From positions 1 to 57,716 of IMG/VR virus record IMGVR_UViG_3300025132_008330: a stretch of DNA of 57,716 nucleotides; one strand, given 5' to 3'. This document shows, piece by piece, positions 40,556 to 52,847 of this stretch. Under the pieces are notes generated by a model, which ran no database searches, had not been told where the DNA came from, and saw only the letters and a list, made by a program, of their open reading frames with translations. Position 1 is the first letter of the stretch; the number at the start of each line of letters is the position of its first letter. The position numbers and the translations under genes are program-made. This stretch comes from a virus.

Positions 40556-41134
40556 TTATGCCCTAAGAGGAGAATTTGCCATTCTCTTCTTTTCTTGATT
40601 AATCGATGGGCAGTGGTTGCCAGTTTGGTGAATCATTTCATAGAAAAGCATCATTGTCATAACTTCGACAGTGTGAAAATAATCACAACCATACACCAAT
40701 TCTTTTATATTTTGTTTTAGTTTTTTAGACTTTTGACCACTCATCATATGAGTTGCAAATCCCTTTTCATCACCCCAATGTAGGGCATTGATGATATTGG
40801 TAGAATTACCAGAGCATGACATACCTACGATTAGGCACTCGCTTGGGTCTTCTACCATAGCTGTAGTTTCTAGCCATCTTTCAAAGATATGCTCATACCC
40901 ATGATCATTAGCATTAGAGGTTATAAAACCAACATTATCAAAAGAATAACAAGTCTTGTCAGGAATCAGTCTGGACATGTCGGTGGACATATGGCTGGCG
41001 ACATAATGCAGCCCACCATTACCTATCAAAAAAATCTTTTTGGCGGCTTTGATAGAGTCAACTAATTCAGCATAACCCTCAGATTCGATAATTTCATAAG
41101 TTTTCTTTTCAATATTTTCAAAATCTATCATCAT
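40556..41134 (-). CDS. SIS-domain sugar isomerase, GmhA-like
   Basis: 192 residues, matching GmhA (192 in E. coli). GNGGLHYVASHMSTDMSR, NDHGYEHIFERWLE and GMSCSGNSTNII follow the GmhA/SIS motifs for sugar-phosphate binding. GmhA turns sedoheptulose 7-phosphate into manno-heptose 7-phosphate for LPS heptose. An HldE-like nucleotidyltransferase (52389-52847) exists in the same cluster, but no heptose kinase is seen. Therefore either heptose synthesis is split with the host, or this isomerase acts on another phosphosugar, for example a 2-ketose of the rare-sugar branch. The start is one of two ATGs; the upstream gene ends 2 bases earlier. Confidence 0.8.
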   Translation of the reverse strand: MMIDFENIEKKTYEIIESEGYAELVDSIKAAKKIFLIGNGGLHYVASHMSTDMSRLIPDKTCYSFDNVGFITSNANDHGYEHIFERWLETTAMVEDPSECLIVGMSCSGNSTNIINALHWGDEKGFATHMMSGQKSKKLKQNIKELVYGCDYFHTVEVMTMMLFYEMIHQTGNHCPSINQEKKRMANSPLRA

Positions 41135-41135
41135 T

Positions 41136-42299
41136 TTACATTACCTCTTTTATTGTCGACAGAGCTATTGTAGCATCTTCTTTGTTCAAACTTAAGCTTG
41201 GTCTAATTCTAATTGATCGAGTTCCAGTTGGATTTGTTAGTACGCCTGAATTAAATAATCTTTTGGCAAACGAATCTCTTAATTCTTGAGTTTTTAAATC
41301 AAAAGCCATTATCAATCCTTTGTTCCTAAAGTTTTGTATATTGCTATTCTGGTTCATAAGATCTTTTATGTATTTTGAAATTAAGTTTACATTTTCTAAT
41401 ATATTATAATTTTTATAAGCCTCCATAATATATTTGCACCTAATCATATCTAAAATATCAGAATTCCATGTTACAGCTAATTTTGTAATATTGTTTTTAT
41501 GAAATATTTTACCAAACTTATCTTGTACCATTATTCCAGAAACCTGAGTTTTCTTTCCAAACACAACAATATCTGGATTGAATCCTAAGTGTTCAAAGAA
41601 CCATAGCTTTCCTGTTGCTCCGAAGCCAACCTGTATTTCATCAAAGATCAGCGGCACATCGTATTGTTCCGTTAGTGCCCTTAGCTTTATAAGAAAGTCA
41701 TAATCCATGTGGAGATCTCCAACGCTGCATTGTATTGGTTCGACGACAACGCAAGTTATATCTCCTGCCTTGAGATGCTCTTCAGTTTTGTTCAAATCCG
41801 CAGCAACCTTGATTGAAAATGGTTCAGGAAAGCTATTGAGCTTCTGATCTGCGGGCCAGAATCTGGATGTTATAAAGCCGCCATAACTATTGATGCCGTG
41901 AAAACTATTATCAAAAGAAAGTATTTTTGGATTTGAGTGACCCTTGTATTCTATTGAAGTCTTAATAGCTGCTTCCACAGCCAAAGCACCAGTGCAACAA
42001 TAATGAAAGTATTTATAAACTCCTTTGCCTGCATAATCCTGAAATAGACTGTCGAACTCCAGTGCTGCATCGGTTATAAATTCGCAGTTATTAACCTTAA
42101 ATGTCGAAGCCTGTAGGATTTCTTTTTTAAATTGTTCGGTTTTAAATATGTCGTGATTGTATCCTAGAGGAAGAGATGCGTACATGCCAAACAAATCTAA
42201 ATACTGTCTGTCAGTATTCTTGTCATATATGTAAGACCCATGGCTTTTATCAAAGTCTATATGTATGTTAAATCTAGTATTTACTGCAAAATTTCTCAC
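41136..42299 (-). CDS. PLP-dependent class III aminotransferase, lysine 6-aminotransferase-like
   Basis: 387 residues from the GTG at 42299. I chose it because AAGGAAG stands 5 bases upstream and it overlaps the previous stop as GTGA; an in-frame TTG 9 codons earlier lacks a site. FDEIQVGFG carries the Asp that contacts PLP nitrogen and VFGKKTQVSG carries the PLP lysine; the FGKKTQ pattern is a hallmark of L-lysine 6-aminotransferases. CTGALAVEAAIK and FDNSFHGINSYGG are fold I class III markers. In a sugar cluster it more likely aminates or links an amino acid-derived group to the glycan than serves lysine catabolism. The substrate is open. Confidence 0.8.
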   Translation of the reverse strand: MRNFAVNTRFNIHIDFDKSHGSYIYDKNTDRQYLDLFGMYASLPLGYNHDIFKTEQFKKEILQASTFKVNNCEFITDAALEFDSLFQDYAGKGVYKYFHYCCTGALAVEAAIKTSIEYKGHSNPKILSFDNSFHGINSYGGFITSRFWPADQKLNSFPEPFSIKVAADLNKTEEHLKAGDITCVVVEPIQCSVGDLHMDYDFLIKLRALTEQYDVPLIFDEIQVGFGATGKLWFFEHLGFNPDIVVFGKKTQVSGIMVQDKFGKIFHKNNITKLAVTWNSDILDMIRCKYIMEAYKNYNILENVNLISKYIKDLMNQNSNIQNFRNKGLIMAFDLKTQELRDSFAKRLFNSGVLTNPTGTRSIRIRPSLSLNKEDATIALSTIKEVM

Positions 42300-42676
42300 A
42301 TCACTTCCTTGAGTGCAGAATTCCAATCAACAAACCTAATCGCCTTGTCGTCAATATAGTATACAGCTCTTGGTTTTTCCGCTGTGACATCTTCAACATA
42401 CTGGTCCATGTCATACTTCTTAAGCCACTCCCAAATCAATTCAACTCCAGTTTTGCCACCTATTAGCATTCTATCTTCTCTTGCCTTAGCACTAAAGACA
42501 ATGATTTTATATTTTTTACTTAGGGCTATCAAAGCATCTCGGGATCCCGGAATTGGGTCATCATAGACAGTGCCGTCATAAAATCCTTTCGAATTTGCAT
42601 GAATAACCCCGTCAAAATCTACGCCAATTTGATAAGTTTCGTCTTCAAAGGAATGTTGTCTAATTTTTTCAGCCAT
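42296..42676 (-). CDS. small HAD-family hydrolase
   Basis: 126 residues with the HAD nucleophile motif DFDGVIH (D20, D22) and later VFSAKAREDR and KPRAVYYIDDKAIRF, corresponding to motifs II and III/IV. Such short HADs lack a cap and usually hydrolyse small phosphates; in nucleotide-sugar clusters they often remove phosphate from a sugar-phosphate intermediate. GmhB-type phosphatases are longer, so assignment to heptose synthesis is not safe. The stop overlaps the aminotransferase start (GTGA). Its own ATG is 2 bases from the upstream stop. Confidence 0.7.
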   Translation of the reverse strand: MAEKIRQHSFEDETYQIGVDFDGVIHANSKGFYDGTVYDDPIPGSRDALIALSKKYKIIVFSAKAREDRMLIGGKTGVELIWEWLKKYDMDQYVEDVTAEKPRAVYYIDDKAIRFVDWNSALKEVM

Positions 42677-42677
42677 A

Positions 42678-43805
42678 CTAGTTTTCTCCGGGGTAAATGT
42701 GATCTACATCTTCACGACTAACAGCTAGTCTTATTGCCTGCTGATTGCCAATGGCTGTGATTTTATGTTTTTTAAACCTTTCAATAAAAACAACATCTCC
42801 TTCTTTTACAGTCAAGTCTCGACCCTCCACATGCCATTTCCACTCCCCTTTCATTATGAGCCACCACTCATCCCACTCAGAGTGATAATGAAGTCTGTTG
42901 CCCTCTCCCGGCATTTGTGCAATCAAAGTAGCGCAGGTTGATGGAGAGTTTATAAGAGTGTGAGACCAACACACATCTGTTGGATTATTTTCAATGATCT
43001 CTCTAGCTGATACAACTTCTTTGTTAAAGTTAAACATGTTGTTGTTTGTGACTCCATCCTCCAGCAACACTCTGAGTCTATCGGCATCAAATACTTCATC
43101 ACTGTTATAGTACATTGGATCATCATTTGATTTTTGAATCGACCTTGCAACTGCCTCTGCTAATTGAAAATCTTCTTCATTATCAATGTCTACCGTAGAA
43201 AATCCGCTCAACTCAAAAAAATGAATACTACCTTCACCTCCATGATAAGCACAATTGTATTTCTCCATATTACTTAAGTAATTATCTTTTTTCCAACCCA
43301 TTAAACCGCATGCGTATGGCTTAATTGGTTCCAGATCTTGGGATGGAGGAGTTATCTTTTTTTGATCAAAATTTATTGGCGATCCGTTATAAACACATTC
43401 TATTTGTTGGTTAAACACCGATATCATAGTGTCAGCGCCCACTCTGTGCATTGTTCTTGTAAAGTCTCTTATTTCCTCCGGTGTTATGAAAGGAGAAGTC
43501 GGAAGTAATTGGACTAAAGTTTCACATTCCGTATTGTCTAAAAAATCATGTGTAAAATGATCATTAGTGGCTGAATCTGTAGAATATTGCTCAGGGCGTT
43601 TATAAAATTTTACTCCTTCCCTTTGTGCAATTTCTCCAATAATATCTGATTCTGAGTTAACATATATGTCATCGAAGCAATTTGCTTCTTTCGCAGCCCT
43701 AATAATGTAGCTGATCAAAGGTATACCGTTTAAAAGACGGATGTTTTTTTTTGGAACTCTTTTGCTACCAAGGCGAGCGGGAATCATAGCTATAGTTTTT
43801 GACAT
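42678..43805 (-). CDS. CMP-sialic-acid-type cytidylyltransferase fused to a cupin
   Basis: 375 residues. Residues 1-235 match NeuA-type CMP-sugar synthetases: MIPARLGSKRVPKKN binds CTP, and LLPTSPFIT and STVDIDNEEDF are typical. Residues about 280-375 are a cupin: the spacing G-x5-H-x-H-x4-E-x6-G is intact in GNRLHYHSEWDEWWLIMKG, so a metal site is likely. The first domain should activate a nonulosonic acid (sialic, Kdn or related) as its CMP form; the cupin could be an epimerase/isomerase or an accessory domain. No NeuB or NeuC is in the window. The next gene is a GT29-like transferase, which would use a CMP-sugar. Confidence 0.82.
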   Translation of the reverse strand: MSKTIAMIPARLGSKRVPKKNIRLLNGIPLISYIIRAAKEANCFDDIYVNSESDIIGEIAQREGVKFYKRPEQYSTDSATNDHFTHDFLDNTECETLVQLLPTSPFITPEEIRDFTRTMHRVGADTMISVFNQQIECVYNGSPINFDQKKITPPSQDLEPIKPYACGLMGWKKDNYLSNMEKYNCAYHGGEGSIHFFELSGFSTVDIDNEEDFQLAEAVARSIQKSNDDPMYYNSDEVFDADRLRVLLEDGVTNNNMFNFNKEVVSAREIIENNPTDVCWSHTLINSPSTCATLIAQMPGEGNRLHYHSEWDEWWLIMKGEWKWHVEGRDLTVKEGDVVFIERFKKHKITAIGNQQAIRLAVSREDVDHIYPGEN

Positions 43806-44695
43806 TATTTATTTCCTTTATATTTGTTCTCTATAAATTTAACAGATTTTGAAAAATTTTCAAGTAAAAAATCATCTAATTTTAATTTTCTCATGTAATG
43901 ATATGCTATAATTTTATGAAAATAATCTATTTGAGGCTGTTGGTGATGAATATCCATTCTAAGATCTTTTACAATTGGAGTATTGTCAATTGCAGATGTT
44001 CGGAAGTTTCCCCCCTTTAGAGCTGCATCTTGGTAAGTGTCACCATACACTTTTCCAAATTGGTTCATGTTAAAGAATGTCATACCGGTTACATAAAGCT
44101 CTTTTACATCATAGTTTAAAAGAGTAATTATGCCAGTTAGACCCGTATTACAGGTTGTGCCAACTTCTCTAAACACTTTAAACAAATATCCATCACAGAC
44201 ATTGTGCCATGGTTGACCAATCTCGTCTAGAAAATCATGCACTCTCTGAATATCCCACATCGATACCATTGGGCAAACAATATATTTCATTGATTTTGCA
44301 AATTCTATATTTTGCTTTAGTGCATTAATTTTAATGATGTTCATGCAATTAACTAAAACATCTGTTCTCCTGCCATAATCATTCCAATCTTTTTCAGGCA
44401 TATGATAAGCTTGATTAACCCTAACAACAATATCATATGAATCTATTTTTTCTCCAAGACCTAAACCTTGAAGATGCGGAGAAGGGCAAACATATGCTAC
44501 CCTCTTTCCCTTTAAAAAATTAGCCAGATTTTTATCGTAATTGTAATCCTTAAACTGAGAAACAAACGGACCTCTTGAGCTAAGATCTCTCAATTGTTGC
44601 TCTGGGGTTGGAGTCGATGATCGCCATTTTGCAAGATTTTTTGACAAAGGGATGTTTATTATGTTTGGCTCGCAATCGCCATACCAATTAGACAT
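43805..44695 (-). CDS. GT29-like sialyltransferase
   Basis: 296 residues from the ATG at 44695; an earlier in-frame TTG overlaps the previous gene. Residue numbers below are from this ATG. About 64-110 (GKRVAYVCPSPHLQGLGLG, KIDSYDIVVRVNQA, YGRRTDVLVN) follow sialylmotif L of GT29 enzymes, and about 179-208 (VGTTCNTGLTGIITLLNY, LYVTGMTFF) follow sialylmotif S. A later HHQQPQIDYF fits the third motif. GT29 enzymes transfer sialic acid or a related sugar from its CMP form and were first known from animals. No signal or membrane segment is seen. The CMP-sugar synthetase is the next gene, joined by TAATG, which strongly supports the donor type. The acceptor is unknown. Confidence 0.7.
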   Translation of the reverse strand: MSNWYGDCEPNIINIPLSKNLAKWRSSTPTPEQQLRDLSSRGPFVSQFKDYNYDKNLANFLKGKRVAYVCPSPHLQGLGLGEKIDSYDIVVRVNQAYHMPEKDWNDYGRRTDVLVNCMNIIKINALKQNIEFAKSMKYIVCPMVSMWDIQRVHDFLDEIGQPWHNVCDGYLFKVFREVGTTCNTGLTGIITLLNYDVKELYVTGMTFFNMNQFGKVYGDTYQDAALKGGNFRTSAIDNTPIVKDLRMDIHHQQPQIDYFHKIIAYHYMRKLKLDDFLLENFSKSVKFIENKYKGNK

Positions 44696-44699
44696 TATA

Positions 44700-45650
44700 T
44701 TACCACACAAACTTGTTTTTATAATACTCTACTATGCTTTGGATTTCTTGGTTGAATTTCCTCATTGTGTGCCAACCTAAAGACTGTAGTTTGTTATCAT
44801 CAACAGAATATCTAACATCTTGACCCTGCCTAGAATAAGAAAAGTCTACATATTTTTCTAAGTCAGCCACATCATGCCCATAGCATTCAACAATTTTCTT
44901 GACAGTATCAATATTTTTTTGGTCTTCGTGACCCGAAATATTATAAATCTCATTAAGTTTTCCACTTTCTATGATTTTTATAACTGCTTCGGCTGTGTCA
45001 TCAGCGTGAAGCCAACACCTATATGGCTCTCCACCGTTATGTAAACAAGTTTTCCTATCACGATTAAGGTTTTTTACAGTCAAAGGTATTAGCTTCTCTG
45101 GATATTGACCGATTCCATAATTATTCGCTGGTCTTACAATGACATATTCCAAATCATATGTCCTTGCCCAAGCCAAAACAAGCATATCTGCTGCCGCTTT
45201 GGACGCAGAATAAGGATTACTAGGCTTTAAAAGGTCATCTTCTTTGTGAGAGCCATGAATAATGTCTCCATACACCTCATCAGTGCTAAAATGTAAGAAA
45301 ACTGGTCTTTTTCCTACATTTTTTTGCTTGCTCCTGATTAATTCTAGGAGATTTTTAGTCCCCAAGACATTAGTTTCAAGGAATTTATCGCTACTAACAA
45401 TACTATTGGCAACATGTGACTCTGCTGCTGTGTTTATTACATAATCACAGTCATACAGATGGTTCAAATCTTTAATATCAGCCTTCTCAAACCTAAAATT
45501 TGAATGTTTTGAGAACTCTTCAATCAGATCTGTGTTGGCTGCATAGGTGCATTTGTCAATTCCATAGACCATCCACCCTTTTTCAAGACATTTTCTGGTA
45601 ACATAGGAGCCAATAAACCCCAAGCAGCCGGTAACATAGACTATTTTCAT
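44700..45650 (-). CDS. NDP-glucose 4,6-dehydratase, RmlB type
   Basis: 316 residues, SDR fold. GCLGFIGSY binds NAD+, STDEVYGD holds the catalytic T-D-E, YSASKAA the Y-x3-K pair, and RPANNYGIGQYPEKLIP is typical for RmlB. It should convert a dTDP- (or another NDP-) glucose to the 4-keto-6-deoxy form. There is no nucleotidyltransferase like RmlA beside it, so the activated glucose must come from the host or from genes outside. It feeds the 3-dehydrase encoded just upstream, which overlaps it by ATGA. The T-D-E motif fits dTDP-glucose best, whereas canonical RfbH acts on CDP-sugars; see the findings. Confidence 0.85.
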   Translation of the reverse strand: MKIVYVTGCLGFIGSYVTRKCLEKGWMVYGIDKCTYAANTDLIEEFSKHSNFRFEKADIKDLNHLYDCDYVINTAAESHVANSIVSSDKFLETNVLGTKNLLELIRSKQKNVGKRPVFLHFSTDEVYGDIIHGSHKEDDLLKPSNPYSASKAAADMLVLAWARTYDLEYVIVRPANNYGIGQYPEKLIPLTVKNLNRDRKTCLHNGGEPYRCWLHADDTAEAVIKIIESGKLNEIYNISGHEDQKNIDTVKKIVECYGHDVADLEKYVDFSYSRQGQDVRYSVDDNKLQSLGWHTMRKFNQEIQSIVEYYKNKFVW

Positions 45651-47002
45651 GCTTTTTCCTCGAAGAATTTATCAACAATTTCCTTAATATAAGCCAATTT
45701 TTCGTCGTCAATACCGATAAATGTACCTAAAAAGAAAGAATTAAATGTCGCTTTGTGTGCAATTGGAAATTGACCTTGAAGATCCTCATAATTTTTAGCA
45801 ATATGTTGGTATCCGGGGTGATAAAGGATATTTCCAGAGAAGTATGATCTAGTTTGGATCTTGTTGCTTTCCAAATGGTTAATGAAGTCCATTCTAGTAA
45901 AACCAGAACCTTCTTTTAGCGTAAGAAGATACCCAAACCAACTTGGATCTGCCTTATCTGTGGCGACCGGCAAGTGAAAATATTTCTCGTAAGGCTTAAA
46001 AATTTCAGTCATTTTATCAAAATTAACCTTTCTTGCCTCGTGGAAATCATGCAGCTTTTTTAGCTGCTCAAGACCAATAGCTGCTTGCAGGTCTAGAGGC
46101 TTTAGATTGTATCCGATTTCATCAAAAACATATCTATGATCGTAATTTGCTCCGGGTGCGCCGGGGAGCCAGTCACCAAATCTATTACCACAAGCAGTTC
46201 CGGATGTAACATTTCCGGGCATGGATGTGTTGCAATAACAAGCCCTACCCCAGTCTCTAAAACTAGCTAAAATTTGTCTTAGTTTTCCTGAGCTTGTAGC
46301 TACAAATCCTCCCTCACCCATGGTCATGTGGTGTGCTGGAAAGAATGAGCAGGTTGATATGTCCCCATAAGACCCCAACTTCTTGCCATCATAGGACGAC
46401 CCAAGAGCATCACAAGCATCTTCAAGAAAAACAAGATTATGTTTTTCTACCAAAGCCATTAGCCTATCCATATTAGGAGGATTGCCGAGAACATGTGCAA
46501 AGCAAATTCCTCTGATTTCAGAGTTCTTGTCTTCTTCCAGAAGCCTTTCTACTTGATCCAAGTCTAAGTTAAGGTCTGGCAGAGTTACATCTACAAACAC
46601 TGGCTCGAAGCCGCATTGAATAAGGGGGTTAATCGTTGTCGGAAAACAGACAATGGGTGTAATAAATTTGGAACCCTTCTGTAAATTCCATTTTTTCTTC
46701 ACATATCTATCTTTACTTGTTAAAGCTGCGACCATAAGTAGATTTGCCGAACTGCCTGAATTCGTCAAAATGCCAGCTTTTTTTCCAAGCTCTTGGGCAA
46801 ATTCAAGTTCGAATTTTCTAGCCTGCTGACCGTAAATAAGCCAACCTGAAAGTAATGTTTCAATTGCCGCTTTATATTCGTTTTGATCAAATACAGGTCC
46901 AGAATACGCCAACCAGTCTTCGCCAGCTTTCCATTCTTTGCTGTTTTTGTCTTCTACATATTCTTCAACAAGATCAAGTATTTCTTTTAATTTTTCAGAC
47001 AT
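45647..47002 (-). CDS. NDP-4-keto-6-deoxyhexose 3-dehydrase, RfbH/E1 type with [2Fe-2S] motif
   Basis: 451 residues, DegT/DnrJ/EryC1 fold. Unlike aminotransferases of this fold, the PLP lysine is replaced by His: SFFPAHHMTMGEGG has H224 at the lysine position, as in E1 (AscC/RfbH). The cysteine pattern C197-x57-C255-x-C257-x13-C271 reproduces the E1 iron-sulfur spacing (C-x57-C-x-C-x7-C) with only the last gap longer. E1 removes the C3 hydroxyl from a 4-keto-6-deoxysugar, giving 3,6-dideoxysugars. The reductase partner (E3/RfbI) is not in the window. Its stop overlaps the RmlB-like gene by ATGA and its start overlaps the SDR gene by 8 bases. Confidence 0.85.
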   Translation of the reverse strand: MSEKLKEILDLVEEYVEDKNSKEWKAGEDWLAYSGPVFDQNEYKAAIETLLSGWLIYGQQARKFELEFAQELGKKAGILTNSGSSANLLMVAALTSKDRYVKKKWNLQKGSKFITPIVCFPTTINPLIQCGFEPVFVDVTLPDLNLDLDQVERLLEEDKNSEIRGICFAHVLGNPPNMDRLMALVEKHNLVFLEDACDALGSSYDGKKLGSYGDISTCSFFPAHHMTMGEGGFVATSSGKLRQILASFRDWGRACYCNTSMPGNVTSGTACGNRFGDWLPGAPGANYDHRYVFDEIGYNLKPLDLQAAIGLEQLKKLHDFHEARKVNFDKMTEIFKPYEKYFHLPVATDKADPSWFGYLLTLKEGSGFTRMDFINHLESNKIQTRSYFSGNILYHPGYQHIAKNYEDLQGQFPIAHKATFNSFFLGTFIGIDDEKLAYIKEIVDKFFEEKA

Positions 47003-47819
47003 TAATGCACCTTTCTAATCCTTTTTCAAGTCCATACAATTGCAAATCTAATGAATATAGCTTTTGCCCATCTCCGGTATATTCCGTATGATAACCGCTT
47101 TGCTTTATTGACACATTTTCAAAAGACTTTCCCATAAGTTTATTAATTTTGTTTGCTATTTCTAGCAAAGACTTGTTGCTATTATAACACAAATTGATAT
47201 CTTTTGCTAATCTTTTTTTCGAAATATTTTCAATATAATGCTCTACAACCTTACACAAATCTTCTATGTAAATAAAGTCCATGTATCTATTTTGATGTAT
47301 TTCTATTGGTTTGCCTTCTTTTACGCTTCTCACTGCTGACTTAACAAATCTTGTATCTGGCTCATCTTGCCCAAAACAGCCGAATATGCGGAGGTTGTAA
47401 AAGTTTTCTAATTTATCTATCTCTCTTTTGATAATCTTCTTTGACAATCCATAATAATCAAAGGGGCAAGATTCATCATTTTCTTTTGCTGATGATATAT
47501 CGGTTCTTCTGTCAAACTCTGCACCAGAGCCGAAATGAATTAAATATCCAAATTTATGTTTGTTTTTGACAAGATTATCAAACATTAACAAGTTGTTTAC
47601 TAAAGTATGAGTATTGTCCTCTTGGGTTCTATTTCCGCCAGATACGGCTGTGTGAATGACAATATCTATTTGATGATCATCAAAAAAGTTATCTACTTGA
47701 TCTTTATTTAAGACATCTAAAGTCTTTCTACTGGTCAAATATACATTGTGTTTATTTTTGATTGTTTTATAAATATTTGTGGCAATAAACCCATTACCAC
47801 CAGTAATTAATATATTCAT
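46995..47819 (-). CDS. SDR-family nucleotide-sugar reductase/epimerase
   Basis: 274 residues. GGNGFIATNIY for NAD(P) and YYGLSKK (Y-x3-K) are present, and FGCFGQDEPDTRFVK, RYMDFIYIEDLCK are typical of extended SDR reductases and epimerases. It is encoded between the split transketolase and the 3-dehydrase, so it probably reduces or epimerises the 4-keto (or branched) intermediate, as in abequose, tyvelose or yersiniose synthesis. The exact reaction cannot be told. It is shorter than classical RmlD (299) and Fcl. Confidence 0.75.
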   Translation of the reverse strand: MNILITGGNGFIATNIYKTIKNKHNVYLTSRKTLDVLNKDQVDNFFDDHQIDIVIHTAVSGGNRTQEDNTHTLVNNLLMFDNLVKNKHKFGYLIHFGSGAEFDRRTDISSAKENDESCPFDYYGLSKKIIKREIDKLENFYNLRIFGCFGQDEPDTRFVKSAVRSVKEGKPIEIHQNRYMDFIYIEDLCKVVEHYIENISKKRLAKDINLCYNSNKSLLEIANKINKLMGKSFENVSIKQSGYHTEYTGDGQKLYSLDLQLYGLEKGLERCINV

Positions 47820-48292
47820 CTTTTCAAATTAATGTAAGAAGGCTTTCCATTATTCATGAACTCGCCAAATTGGTATTGTAATTCATCTTCTGTGCTCGGC
47901 TTCATGGAAACAATATTCTTAAATGTTTTCATAACTTCCATATCTTCCTCTGCCCAATGTGAAAATCCAAGATACCCATAGTCTCTATCTCTTCCACCGC
48001 CAACTAACTTTACGCAGACTTTTTCGTGGTCTAGATAGTTTCTTATAATCTCAAATGGTCTGTAAAGCAAAAAGGGTGTTATTGAATATACAACGGGGAC
48101 TTTGCCTTCCATGGCAATTCCAGACGCTGCTCCAAGTAAAAGTTGTTCTGATGATCCTACATTGTAGAATCTGTCGTTGTAATCTATGCGGATTCTATCC
48201 CATAGACCATAACCAAGATCACCTGTCAGTAAAATGATTTTATCATTTCTTGCCATCTCTTTGTGCAACAATGTGCTAAATGTTTTTCTCAT
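47816..48292 (-). CDS. split transketolase, C-terminal (pyrimidine-binding) subunit
   Basis: 158 residues corresponding to the Pyr domain of transketolase/PDH E1-beta. VGSSEQLLLGAASGIAMEG carries the Glu that protonates thiamine diphosphate, and FLLYRPFEIIRNY and VGGGRDRDYGYLGFSHWAEED match family motifs. The third C-terminal domain of full transketolase is missing. Together with the next gene it should make an alpha/beta enzyme. It may transfer a two-carbon unit to a keto sugar. The ATGA and direct junctions indicate coupled translation and thus a 1:1 complex. Confidence 0.8.
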   Translation of the reverse strand: MRKTFSTLLHKEMARNDKIILLTGDLGYGLWDRIRIDYNDRFYNVGSSEQLLLGAASGIAMEGKVPVVYSITPFLLYRPFEIIRNYLDHEKVCVKLVGGGRDRDYGYLGFSHWAEEDMEVMKTFKNIVSMKPSTEDELQYQFGEFMNNGKPSYINLKR

Positions 48293-48907
48293 CTAACTCT
48301 CCATCACCTCTTTGTAATCATCTTCTTTCATTACATGATAGTGTGCATTTAAGCCGCACAAGAAAGAATAGTGAGACACATTAGTTCTGCGAAGATTTAT
48401 ATCTGGTAGAAACGCAACAAGTCTTTTTTCTAAGTATTCAACATCAATGGCATCATATGCAGCATACCCGTTGATATTAACATATATTTTGATGTTGTCA
48501 AGTTTTGATTCTTTTATAAACCTTAACCCTTCCCATATAGAACCCTCTGCGGATTCTCCATCAGAAATTAAACAATACACTTTTCTATTTTTGTTTGCCA
48601 TGGCTCTACCAATAGCAACCAATAAACCAAGCCCAAGGCTTCCGGTTGAGCAGTATATTTTATTTTGTTCATCTCTATGAGGATGCCCTCCATGTTTTAT
48701 AAACATCTCTTCTGCATTTGTGCCTTCGTATTTTTCCATCACCACATAAAGAGCCAGAGCGGCGTGACCAGAGGATAAAATAAAAATATCATCTTCGGAC
48801 TTTTCTTTATAAATTTCTTCAATAATTTCTAAACTAGAAAAATAACTTCCGAGATGACTCAGTTTGTGCTTATACGCTATTTCTGCTATTCTCTTTTTTA
48901 AGTCCAT
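48293..48907 (-). CDS. split transketolase, N-terminal (PP-binding) subunit
   Basis: 204 residues from the ATG at 48907, chosen over an upstream in-frame TTG because GGAAAG precedes the ATG. IFILSSGHAALALY, GGHPHRD and GSLGLGL match transketolase N-terminal domains. LISDGESAEGSIWE followed by VNINGYAAYD is the metal/thiamine-diphosphate motif (GDG...NN), with Ser in place of the first Gly and N-I-N in place of NN. Full-length transketolase N-terminal domains are about 300 residues, so it is a compact version as seen in sugar clusters. The gene overlaps the end of the GT2 gene by 10 bases. Confidence 0.8.
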   Translation of the reverse strand: MDLKKRIAEIAYKHKLSHLGSYFSSLEIIEEIYKEKSEDDIFILSSGHAALALYVVMEKYEGTNAEEMFIKHGGHPHRDEQNKIYCSTGSLGLGLLVAIGRAMANKNRKVYCLISDGESAEGSIWEGLRFIKESKLDNIKIYVNINGYAAYDAIDVEYLEKRLVAFLPDINLRRTNVSHYSFLCGLNAHYHVMKEDDYKEVMES

Positions 48908-49632
48908 TTTTCTTTCCAATAGTCTTGTATCATTTTGTCGTAATTCTTACCCTCTTTTTGCACACTCCAAGTTGCTTGCTCTGGGTGCCACCTGTAGTAA
49001 TATCCCAAGAAAATATTTGCTGGAAATATAAACACTCCGTTTTCTGCTAAGTTGCAGTACAAGTCATAGTCTGCTGCGCCACCATATAACTCAGGCTTTG
49101 TTTCAAGTAATCCGTCTTCATACAATTGCCTATTATACACTGCTGTGGGACTATTGACTGGGCATCTCTGAAGGGCTAAAGATTTAAATTGGCTTATATT
49201 TTTATAGAAATGTTTTGTCTCTGCCGTATTTGTATTGCCATTTACATCAATTCCAACGATTGGGCTTTGCAAAACTTTAACTTTATCTGGTGCCTTGAGG
49301 ATAAACTTTAGGTTATTTTCCACAAATTTAGGACCATATATATCATCAGAAGCAAGAGTAAAAAGATATTCCCCAGTTGCAATAGAAAAGCCTTTTTGCC
49401 TTGCTTCGTCCCAACAATTAGGGTAGATATTTTCTGCCGTATCAATTATTACTTTGCTGTTTTGACTAAACTTGTCTGTCAATATTTGCAAACTGTCGTC
49501 TTTGCTTTCGTTGTCAACAACAATGACTTCTAAGTTTTCATAAGTTTGATTTAGAGCAGAGTTTACGCACTGCTCAATCCATTTTTCTGCATTATAACAT
49601 GGTATAATTATTGATACTTTTGGATTATTCAT
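48898..49632 (-). CDS. glycosyltransferase family 2
   Basis: 244 residues. The N-terminus PKVSIIIPCYNAEKWIEQC, then QTYENLEVIVVDNESKDDS and LASDDIYGPKF (the DXD-like metal site) are GT2 hallmarks. An inverting enzyme that uses a nucleotide-sugar donor, probably in the cytoplasm. No membrane segment. The donor and acceptor are not inferable. ATGA junction with the next gene. Confidence 0.88.
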   Translation of the reverse strand: MNNPKVSIIIPCYNAEKWIEQCVNSALNQTYENLEVIVVDNESKDDSLQILTDKFSQNSKVIIDTAENIYPNCWDEARQKGFSIATGEYLFTLASDDIYGPKFVENNLKFILKAPDKVKVLQSPIVGIDVNGNTNTAETKHFYKNISQFKSLALQRCPVNSPTAVYNRQLYEDGLLETKPELYGGAADYDLYCNLAENGVFIFPANIFLGYYYRWHPEQATWSVQKEGKNYDKMIQDYWKEKWT

Positions 49633-52388: not shown

Positions 52389-52847
52389 TTATTTTCCTTG
52401 ATTTTTAAGGGTGGCGAGACGGGGTTGGGCATTGACCAAATCACTAGAGCTTTGTACTTTTCCACCACCTACGCCCCAGATTAGATGTACACCCAGTTCT
52501 TCTGCGACTGGGATTTCTGGGATATTGTCGGAGGTTCTATCTCCACCATTGGCAAACGCTACTTTAAAATCAGGCCACAAAGCCCTAACTCGGCGCAAGA
52601 GATCACAAGCACTATTATCATTATCGTCGAATTCCATGGCTTTGGCAACTCCTCGTACACCTTGAACCATTTCTATTCTTTCTTCACATGGCATAAAAAC
52701 ATAGCCTTTTTTTCTCATTAACCACTCGTCTGAGTTAACCCCTACGACAACGATTTGAGCCATCTTTGCAGATTCTTGAATCATACGGAGGTGACCAACA
52801 TGCATAGGGTCAAACCCTCCACTCAAAACAACGACATCATAATACAT
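52389..52847 (-). CDS. cytidylyltransferase-fold nucleotidyltransferase, HldE C-domain-like
   Basis: 152 residues. LSGGFDPMHVGHLRMI has the HxGH nucleotidyl-transfer motif, and VVVGVNSDEWLMRKKGY matches the HldE (RfaE) adenylyltransferase domain. HldE C-domain attaches AMP to heptose 1-phosphate. No kinase domain is fused or nearby. It could instead activate glycerol-phosphate or another small alcohol phosphate, as related TagD-type enzymes do. It lies within the glycosyltransferase block, overlapping the neighbouring GT4 gene by one base. Confidence 0.8.
   Translation of the reverse strand: MYYDVVVLSGGFDPMHVGHLRMIQESAKMAQIVVVGVNSDEWLMRKKGYVFMPCEERIEMVQGVRGVAKAMEFDDNDNSACDLLRRVRALWPDFKVAFANGGDRTSDNIPEIPVAEELGVHLIWGVGGGKVQSSSDLVNAQPRLATLKNQGK

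Follow-up and report, generated by a model that had tools for sequence, protein, structure and literature searches.

A putative branched-sugar cassette with a split mini-transketolase in an uncultured T4-like phage

The five-gene cassette and its surroundings

The IMG/VR virus record IMGVR_UViG_3300025132_008330 (57,716 nucleotides, analyzed over its whole length and referred to below as the window) comes from a marine-type phage that the genes for baseplate wedge, late sigma factor and primase identify as T4-like. Five of its genes, embedded in an extended series of glycosyltransferase and sugar-nucleotide genes, quite likely constitute a branched-sugar cassette. In the order of transcription on the minus strand, these genes encode the two subunits of a split mini-transketolase (TK-N and TK-Pyr, jointly the TK pair), a short-chain dehydrogenase/reductase (SDR), an RfbH/E1-type 3-dehydrase and an RmlB-type nucleoside diphosphate (NDP)-glucose 4,6-dehydratase (Table 1). 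The transketolase-type carboligase would add a hydroxyacetyl group to C4 of a ketosugar and the SDR would then reduce the ketone of the branch. The original prediction, made from the letters of the DNA alone, had listed these five genes as a coupled set, and all of them are present, with neighbors that abut or share 4-10 nt; TK-N additionally overlaps the GT2 glycosyltransferase gene located upstream. We relied on mechanical calling of open reading frames and on our own thresholds for hidden Markov model matches.

Table 1. Genes of the cassette and nearby genes of the window
Feature	Position	Strand	Evidence or remark
TK-N, thiamine diphosphate/Mg-binding subunit of split mini-transketolase, 204 amino acids	48293-48907	minus	ATG start; alternative upstream TTG at 48919
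TK-Pyr, pyrimidine-binding subunit with catalytic Glu, 158 amino acids	47816-48292	minus	Transket_pyr
SDR, proposed branch-ketone reductase (YerF role)	46995-47819	minus	Epimerase 3.7e-27; YxxxK conserved
RfbH/E1-type 3-dehydrase, [2Fe-2S] Cys and catalytic His	45647-47002	minus	NCBIfam RfbH; 3bcx
RmlB-type NDP-glucose 4,6-dehydratase	44700-45650	minus	TIGR01181, 297 bits; STDEVYG, Y and K invariant
GT2 glycosyltransferase, candidate user of the sugar	48898-49632	minus	Glycos_transf_2 4.5e-28; homologue in the same place in L262
GT29-like (sialyltransferase-like) protein, candidate user of the sugar	43805-44710	minus	Glyco_transf_29 4.7e-6; directly downstream of the cassette
PseF-like cytidylyltransferase fused to a cupin domain	42678-43805		
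Class III aminotransferase	41136-42326		next to the PseF-like/cupin gene
GmhA-like SIS protein	40556-41134		next to the PseF-like/cupin gene
HldE-type nucleotidyltransferase	52389-52847		

The 3-dehydrase was correctly recognized in the original prediction: the protein scores 467 bits against the cut-off of 423 for the NCBIfam RfbH model, its best match among solved structures is the CDP-4-keto-6-deoxyglucose-3-dehydrase E1 (3bcx, E 5e-101), and in the alignment with 3bcx/3bb8 the catalytic His that replaces Lys and the four [2Fe-2S] Cys are in register. The same His is present in 157 of the 158 distinct phage RfbH sequences. For the RmlB-type enzyme, the best model is dTDP-glucose 4,6-dehydratase (TIGR01181), at 297 bits against an equivalog cut-off of 365, and the TDE and YxxxK residues are present. 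Altogether, the cassette combines a 4,6-dehydratase, a 3-dehydrase, a thiamine diphosphate (ThDP)-dependent carboligase and an SDR, the combination by which we recognized pathways of the yersiniose type.

A minimal form of transketolase

The carboligase genes had been described as both halves of a split transketolase. The enzyme is indeed split, with TK-N matching Transketolase_N (5.6e-7) and the NCBIfam transketolase model (2.7e-24) and TK-Pyr matching Transket_pyr (3.5e-14), but the halves are not full ones: Transket_pyr is the sole domain match of TK-Pyr, Transketolase_C is missing and, judged by this domain content, the transketolase is a minimal form. TK-N scores 29.3 bits against Transketolase_N and 19.3 bits against E1_dh, which is not its best family, and none of the TPP_enzyme_N/M/C domains that make up the architecture of the YerE family was found in either subunit. 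In profile searches, both subunits have their closest solved relatives in the two chains of 6yaj/6yak, the split transketolase from Carboxydothermus, which, unlike the phage pair with its short subunits and no C-terminal domain, is an ordinary full-size split enzyme (N, 309 residues; C, 341 residues). The AlphaFold2 model of TK-N (pLDDT 93) has its best fold match in 6yak, and that of TK-Pyr (pLDDT 92.7) matches DXS, split transketolase and transketolase.

His26, His66, His100, Asp155, Glu160, Asn185, His261, Glu411, Phe437 and His473 (E. coli numbering) are invariant in all 87 phage sequences, each of which accordingly possesses the Mg/ThDP motif, the catalytic Glu411 and the five substrate His (26, 66, 100, 261 and 473) that we took to define a transketolase. 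Arg358, Ser385, His461 and Arg520 of the phosphate site were kept out of the evidence because the alignment is unsure in that region. In transketolases, His26, His100 and His261 contact the donor; given that the catalytic residues, including these three, are invariant, transfer of hydroxyacetyl from a ketose is favored.

Grouping of the subunits with ordinary transketolase, which the original prediction had named as the outcome that would speak against it, was not observed: the tree sets the Pyr subunits of the phages apart from the ordinary split transketolases, in a clade with 100/100 support and a long stem. The carboligase would act like a transketolase although it lacks the C-terminal domain and falls outside the ordinary clade. 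These two features, together with the replacement of the pair by YerE-like or E1-like carboligases described below, make it very improbable that we are dealing with an ordinary transketolase acting on sugar phosphates, for instance in the supply of sedoheptulose-7-phosphate to a heptose route of the GmhA/HldE type, with its place in the cassette being incidental. The intact catalytic residues are compatible with such a role, as are the GmhA-like gene and the HldE-type nucleotidyltransferase in the window; heptose supply via GmhA was nevertheless rejected because the GmhA-like family is outside the 45 commonest neighbor families of the TK loci.

Conservation of the set and exchange of the carboligase

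Scans of IMG/VR, the contigs of which are from uncultured viruses and often fragments, with small alignments of the two transketolase subunits yielded 146 and 71 relatives. TK-Pyr occurs in 89 distinct loci, 85 of which contain the SDR and 79 the RmlB-type gene. A 3-dehydrase (RfbH, ColD-like or the family denoted here d380) lies within about 10 kb in 74 loci, two of which have only the ColD-like form, and after whole records were searched for 15 of the loci, including these two, RfbH or d380 was found in about 82 of the 89, a distribution that fits a 3,6-dideoxy-4-keto acceptor. The next commonest neighbor is GDP-mannose dehydratase (26/89). Given that the set recurs in so many distinct loci, its composition cannot be attributed to chance, and given that the gene order differs among phages, with RfbH and RmlB either upstream or downstream, the repeated co-occurrence does not represent one inherited block. 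The d380 proteins (for example, L122:7906-9057 and its relatives) are His-type DegT relatives without the CxC cluster motif that often stand in for a missing RfbH; the His is present in 23/23, among solved structures they come closest to E1 and ColD, and they possibly represent an E3-independent 3-dehydrase.

That no phage was known with this set, as originally stated, is borne out by the INPHARED collection but not by IMG/VR, where the set is common. Among cultured phages no close relatives of the TK pair were detected, the INPHARED matches being distant (below 40% identity) and several of them lying in records of host DNA. Candidate close homologues from bacterial genomes, namely seven genome-bin contigs (L010-L016) with 54-70% identity, were set aside as likely binned viral contigs because their genes largely recur in phage contigs (L010-L015 were examined). 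One related phage sugar cluster contains a gene that, read by eye, appears dehydroquinate-synthase-like (sugar phosphate cyclase-like; L004:4306-5304).

The partners of the SDR were scored in phage contigs that had been selected by RfbH or RmlB rather than by any ThDP enzyme, each sample being limited to the 80 loci that most closely resembled the scan query. A ThDP carboligase shares the locus with 88 of the 90 distinct SDRs of this family, the two others (L190 and L267) being at contig ends; these carboligases comprise 48 YerE-like enzymes (TPP_enzyme N/M/C), 26 TK pairs and 14 mini E1-alpha/beta-like pairs, the latter exemplified by L182, where E1_dh reaches the 58.9 bits that place the pair in the E1-alpha/beta class. 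Among the RfbH-selected loci without this SDR, a ThDP carboligase is present in 8/28, a figure that truncation may lower. The TK and SDR genes touch in 23 of the 26 TK loci. This near-constant association leaves hardly any credibility to the possibility that RmlB, RfbH and the SDR make a plain 3,6-dideoxyhexose of the abequose or paratose type, with the SDR reducing C4 and the TK pair merely hitchhiking, even though O-antigen pathways of the Salmonella type are well known to use the three enzyme types in this manner.

The exchange is most directly seen in L262, a near twin of the window that is colinear with it and encodes a YerE-like enzyme and a PanB-like protein exactly in place of TK-N and TK-Pyr. 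The SDR, RfbH and RmlB proteins of the two phages are 71%, 64% and 87% identical, respectively, and the upstream genes 48-89%, with the counterpart of the HldE-type gene at 89%. Mapped onto the SDR tree, the carboligase type requires no fewer than 29 changes, compared to a mean of 37 after shuffling, so the modules are freely exchanged; tight co-evolution of SDR and carboligase was considered and rejected, the signal being only weak for the SDR (29 vs 37 changes), RmlB (33 vs 39) and RfbH (32 vs 38) alike.

Among solved structures, the phage YerE-like enzyme is closest to 8rph (461 bits), the YerE-like enzyme JanthE, followed by an acetolactate synthase (267 bits). Several YerE-like loci (L179, L184, L196, L226, L242, L262) include either a PanB-like gene or genes for acetaldehyde dehydrogenase and a DmpG-like aldolase, which could make 4-hydroxy-2-oxo acid donors and apparently serve longer sugar branches; ErwE is reported to prefer 4-hydroxy-2-oxo acids. 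Among the TK loci, such donor-type genes are found only in L038, as expected if the donor of the TK pair were a central ketose phosphate. L038:10483-13200 holds the TK pair along with a YerE-like and PanB-like set. In some YerE-like cassettes (L178:5623-7607, L252, L256), genes for an HpcH/HpaI-like and a 4Fe-4S (LdpA-like) protein occur as a pair.

A comparable exchange was found in bacteria. In 398 Pseudomonadota genomes, one SDR family marks O-antigen-type clusters in nine, standing beside a split, full-size transketolase in four (G104, G148, G096, G116), beside a YerE-like enzyme in another four (G253, G279, G120, G176), and in the ninth (G076) with acetaldehyde dehydrogenase- and DmpG-like genes. 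The SDR of a TK cluster and that of a YerE cluster are 49% identical, and RfbH is adjacent in several of the clusters. The G104 cluster also encodes an E3-like reductase, a nucleotidyltransferase, a CDP-glucose dehydratase-like protein and RfbH, and the bacterial cluster enzyme contains the Transketolase_C domain. Because the bacterial clusters show the same swap, the exchange must have occurred with different SDRs and different transketolases. The bacterial loci L371, L408, L409 and L410, O-antigen-type clusters in which a conserved SDR adjoins a split transketolase, directly after RfbH in L371 and L408, are apparently undescribed branched-sugar loci. The role in branching, which the original prediction had guessed by analogy with YerE and AviB, thus gains support from natural replacement by YerE-like or E1-alpha/beta-like enzymes across the phage cassettes, including the near twin, and in the bacterial clusters; the chemistry itself is discussed below as a prediction.

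Predicted pathway, alternatives and related systems

In the route that we infer, in which acceptor, donor, nucleotide, stereochemistry, product and use of the sugar are all predicted, host-made NDP-glucose would be converted to NDP-4-keto-6-deoxyglucose by the RmlB-type enzyme, and RfbH, with electrons from the host, would take off O3, leaving NDP-4-keto-3,6-dideoxyglucose. The TK-N/TK-Pyr heteromer would then move a two-carbon hydroxyacetyl group from a ketose (phosphate) onto the C4 ketone, generating a tertiary alcohol, and the SDR would reduce the branch ketone to yield a 3,6-dideoxy-4-C-(1,2-dihydroxyethyl)hexose, a hydroxylated relative of yersiniose A, for use by the neighboring glycosyltransferases. 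The nucleotide is probably dTDP because the dehydratase resembles RmlB.

With cassette and acceptor unchanged, the donor of the TK pair could be one of the alpha-keto acids pyruvate and hydroxypyruvate, and with pyruvate the branch would be acetyl-derived as in yersiniose A. Pyruvate is the source of the C2 branches made by YerE and the alpha-keto-acid-dehydrogenase-like enzymes, and the fold of TK-Pyr resembles the pyruvate user DXS as well as transketolase; conversely, TK-N is transketolase-like in both sequence and fold, the three donor-contacting His are kept, and sister cassettes already have an E1-like pair able to use pyruvate, so we regard this donor as unlikely. The TK pair might also act on a different acceptor, that is, one that is not 3-deoxygenated, is attacked at another ring carbon or is another NDP-sugar such as a GDP-sugar. 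Loci L014 and L015, both short contigs, retain TK-N, TK-Pyr and SDR without RmlB, and a few TK loci have no RfbH-type gene in the available sequence; the RmlB-type enzyme and the 3-dehydrase are nevertheless the commonest partners, and the same frame serves YerE-like enzymes, YerE itself acting at C4 of CDP-4-keto-3,6-dideoxyglucose, which renders a different acceptor rather improbable.

Several observations weigh against hydroxyacetyl transfer to a 3,6-dideoxy-4-ketosugar by the TK pair. Seven of the 89 loci, mostly fragments, have no 3-dehydrase in the available sequence, and in some loci of this kind a 6-deoxy acceptor is possible. No relation between the phage SDR and the SDR of the bacterial clusters is detectable by BLASTP past the nucleotide-binding start. 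In 12 phage records, several of them fragmentary, no E3-type reductase (PF00175) was found, and in 11 of the 12 there is no sugar-1-phosphate nucleotidyltransferase, so supply by the host is assumed for both functions and the phage would draw on host NDP-glucose. Finally, according to a 2025 review, the ketone-accepting carboligases shown to date are YerE-like and E1-type enzymes; branching by a transketolase is unproven anywhere, split transketolases having only been proposed for this role in Streptomyces clusters (PMC12247030).

The closest parallel is the yersiniose A/erwiniose pathway (DdhB, DdhC, i.e., RfbH/E1, with E3, YerE or ErwE, and YerF), in which the same four enzyme types are clustered and the YerE-like type of which fills the carboligase slot in the sister phages. 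The set of the window can be viewed as a variant of this pathway with a different carboligase, the split mini-transketolase instead of YerE, and it further differs in its dehydratase, which is RmlB-like rather than of the CDP-glucose type, and in the missing E3 and nucleotidyltransferase. Hydroxyacetyl transfer to a ketosugar has likewise been proposed for the split transketolases of miharamycin and amipurimycin synthesis in Streptomyces (PMC12247030), but these belong to actinobacterial antibiotic clusters, whereas the window is a phage with an RfbH 3,6-dideoxyhexose context, a C-terminally truncated Pyr subunit and natural replacement by YerE-like enzymes. AviB1/B2 and KbDH-alpha/beta are two-subunit ThDP enzymes for C2 branching, comparable to the mini E1-like pair that occupies the slot in other phages; the pair of the window belongs to another subfamily, being transketolase-like and keeping the transketolase histidines.

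The same kit is found in more than 100 uncultured phages, each time with an enzyme from one of three classes that replace each other in the joining of carbons, and this suggests that viruses build and diversify rare surface sugars. On balance, we favor the broader view of a modular phage factory in which three classes of ThDP carboligases, some with donor-making genes, are swapped within a constant dehydratase/3-dehydrase/SDR frame, and in which the phage-restricted minimal transketolase would be a new ketone-accepting carboligase giving 4-C-dihydroxyethyl sugars. If so, phages make branched sugars of the octose type and alter the branch by exchanging a single module, with possible consequences for surface masking, superinfection exclusion or decoration of virion or DNA. 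Whether a transketolase can accept ketones could be tested cleanly on the phage pair and its bacterial counterparts, for which a substrate is predicted and a near-identical phage supplies a YerE-like enzyme as natural control, and the mini-subunits may serve as catalysts for the synthesis of tertiary alcohols.

A literature search, incomplete in its coverage, returned no relevant report on branched-sugar cassettes or transketolase/YerE sets in phages; a depth-profile study lists rfbH among viral auxiliary metabolic genes without a branched-sugar reading. The cultured cyanophages S-SM2 (L258) and P-TIM68 (L259) encode, in sugar clusters, single-chain mini ThDP proteins annotated as 'transketolase central region', which match the E1-like Pyr subunit distantly, have no RfbH annotated alongside, and adjoin a zinc alcohol dehydrogenase and phosphoheptose isomerases.

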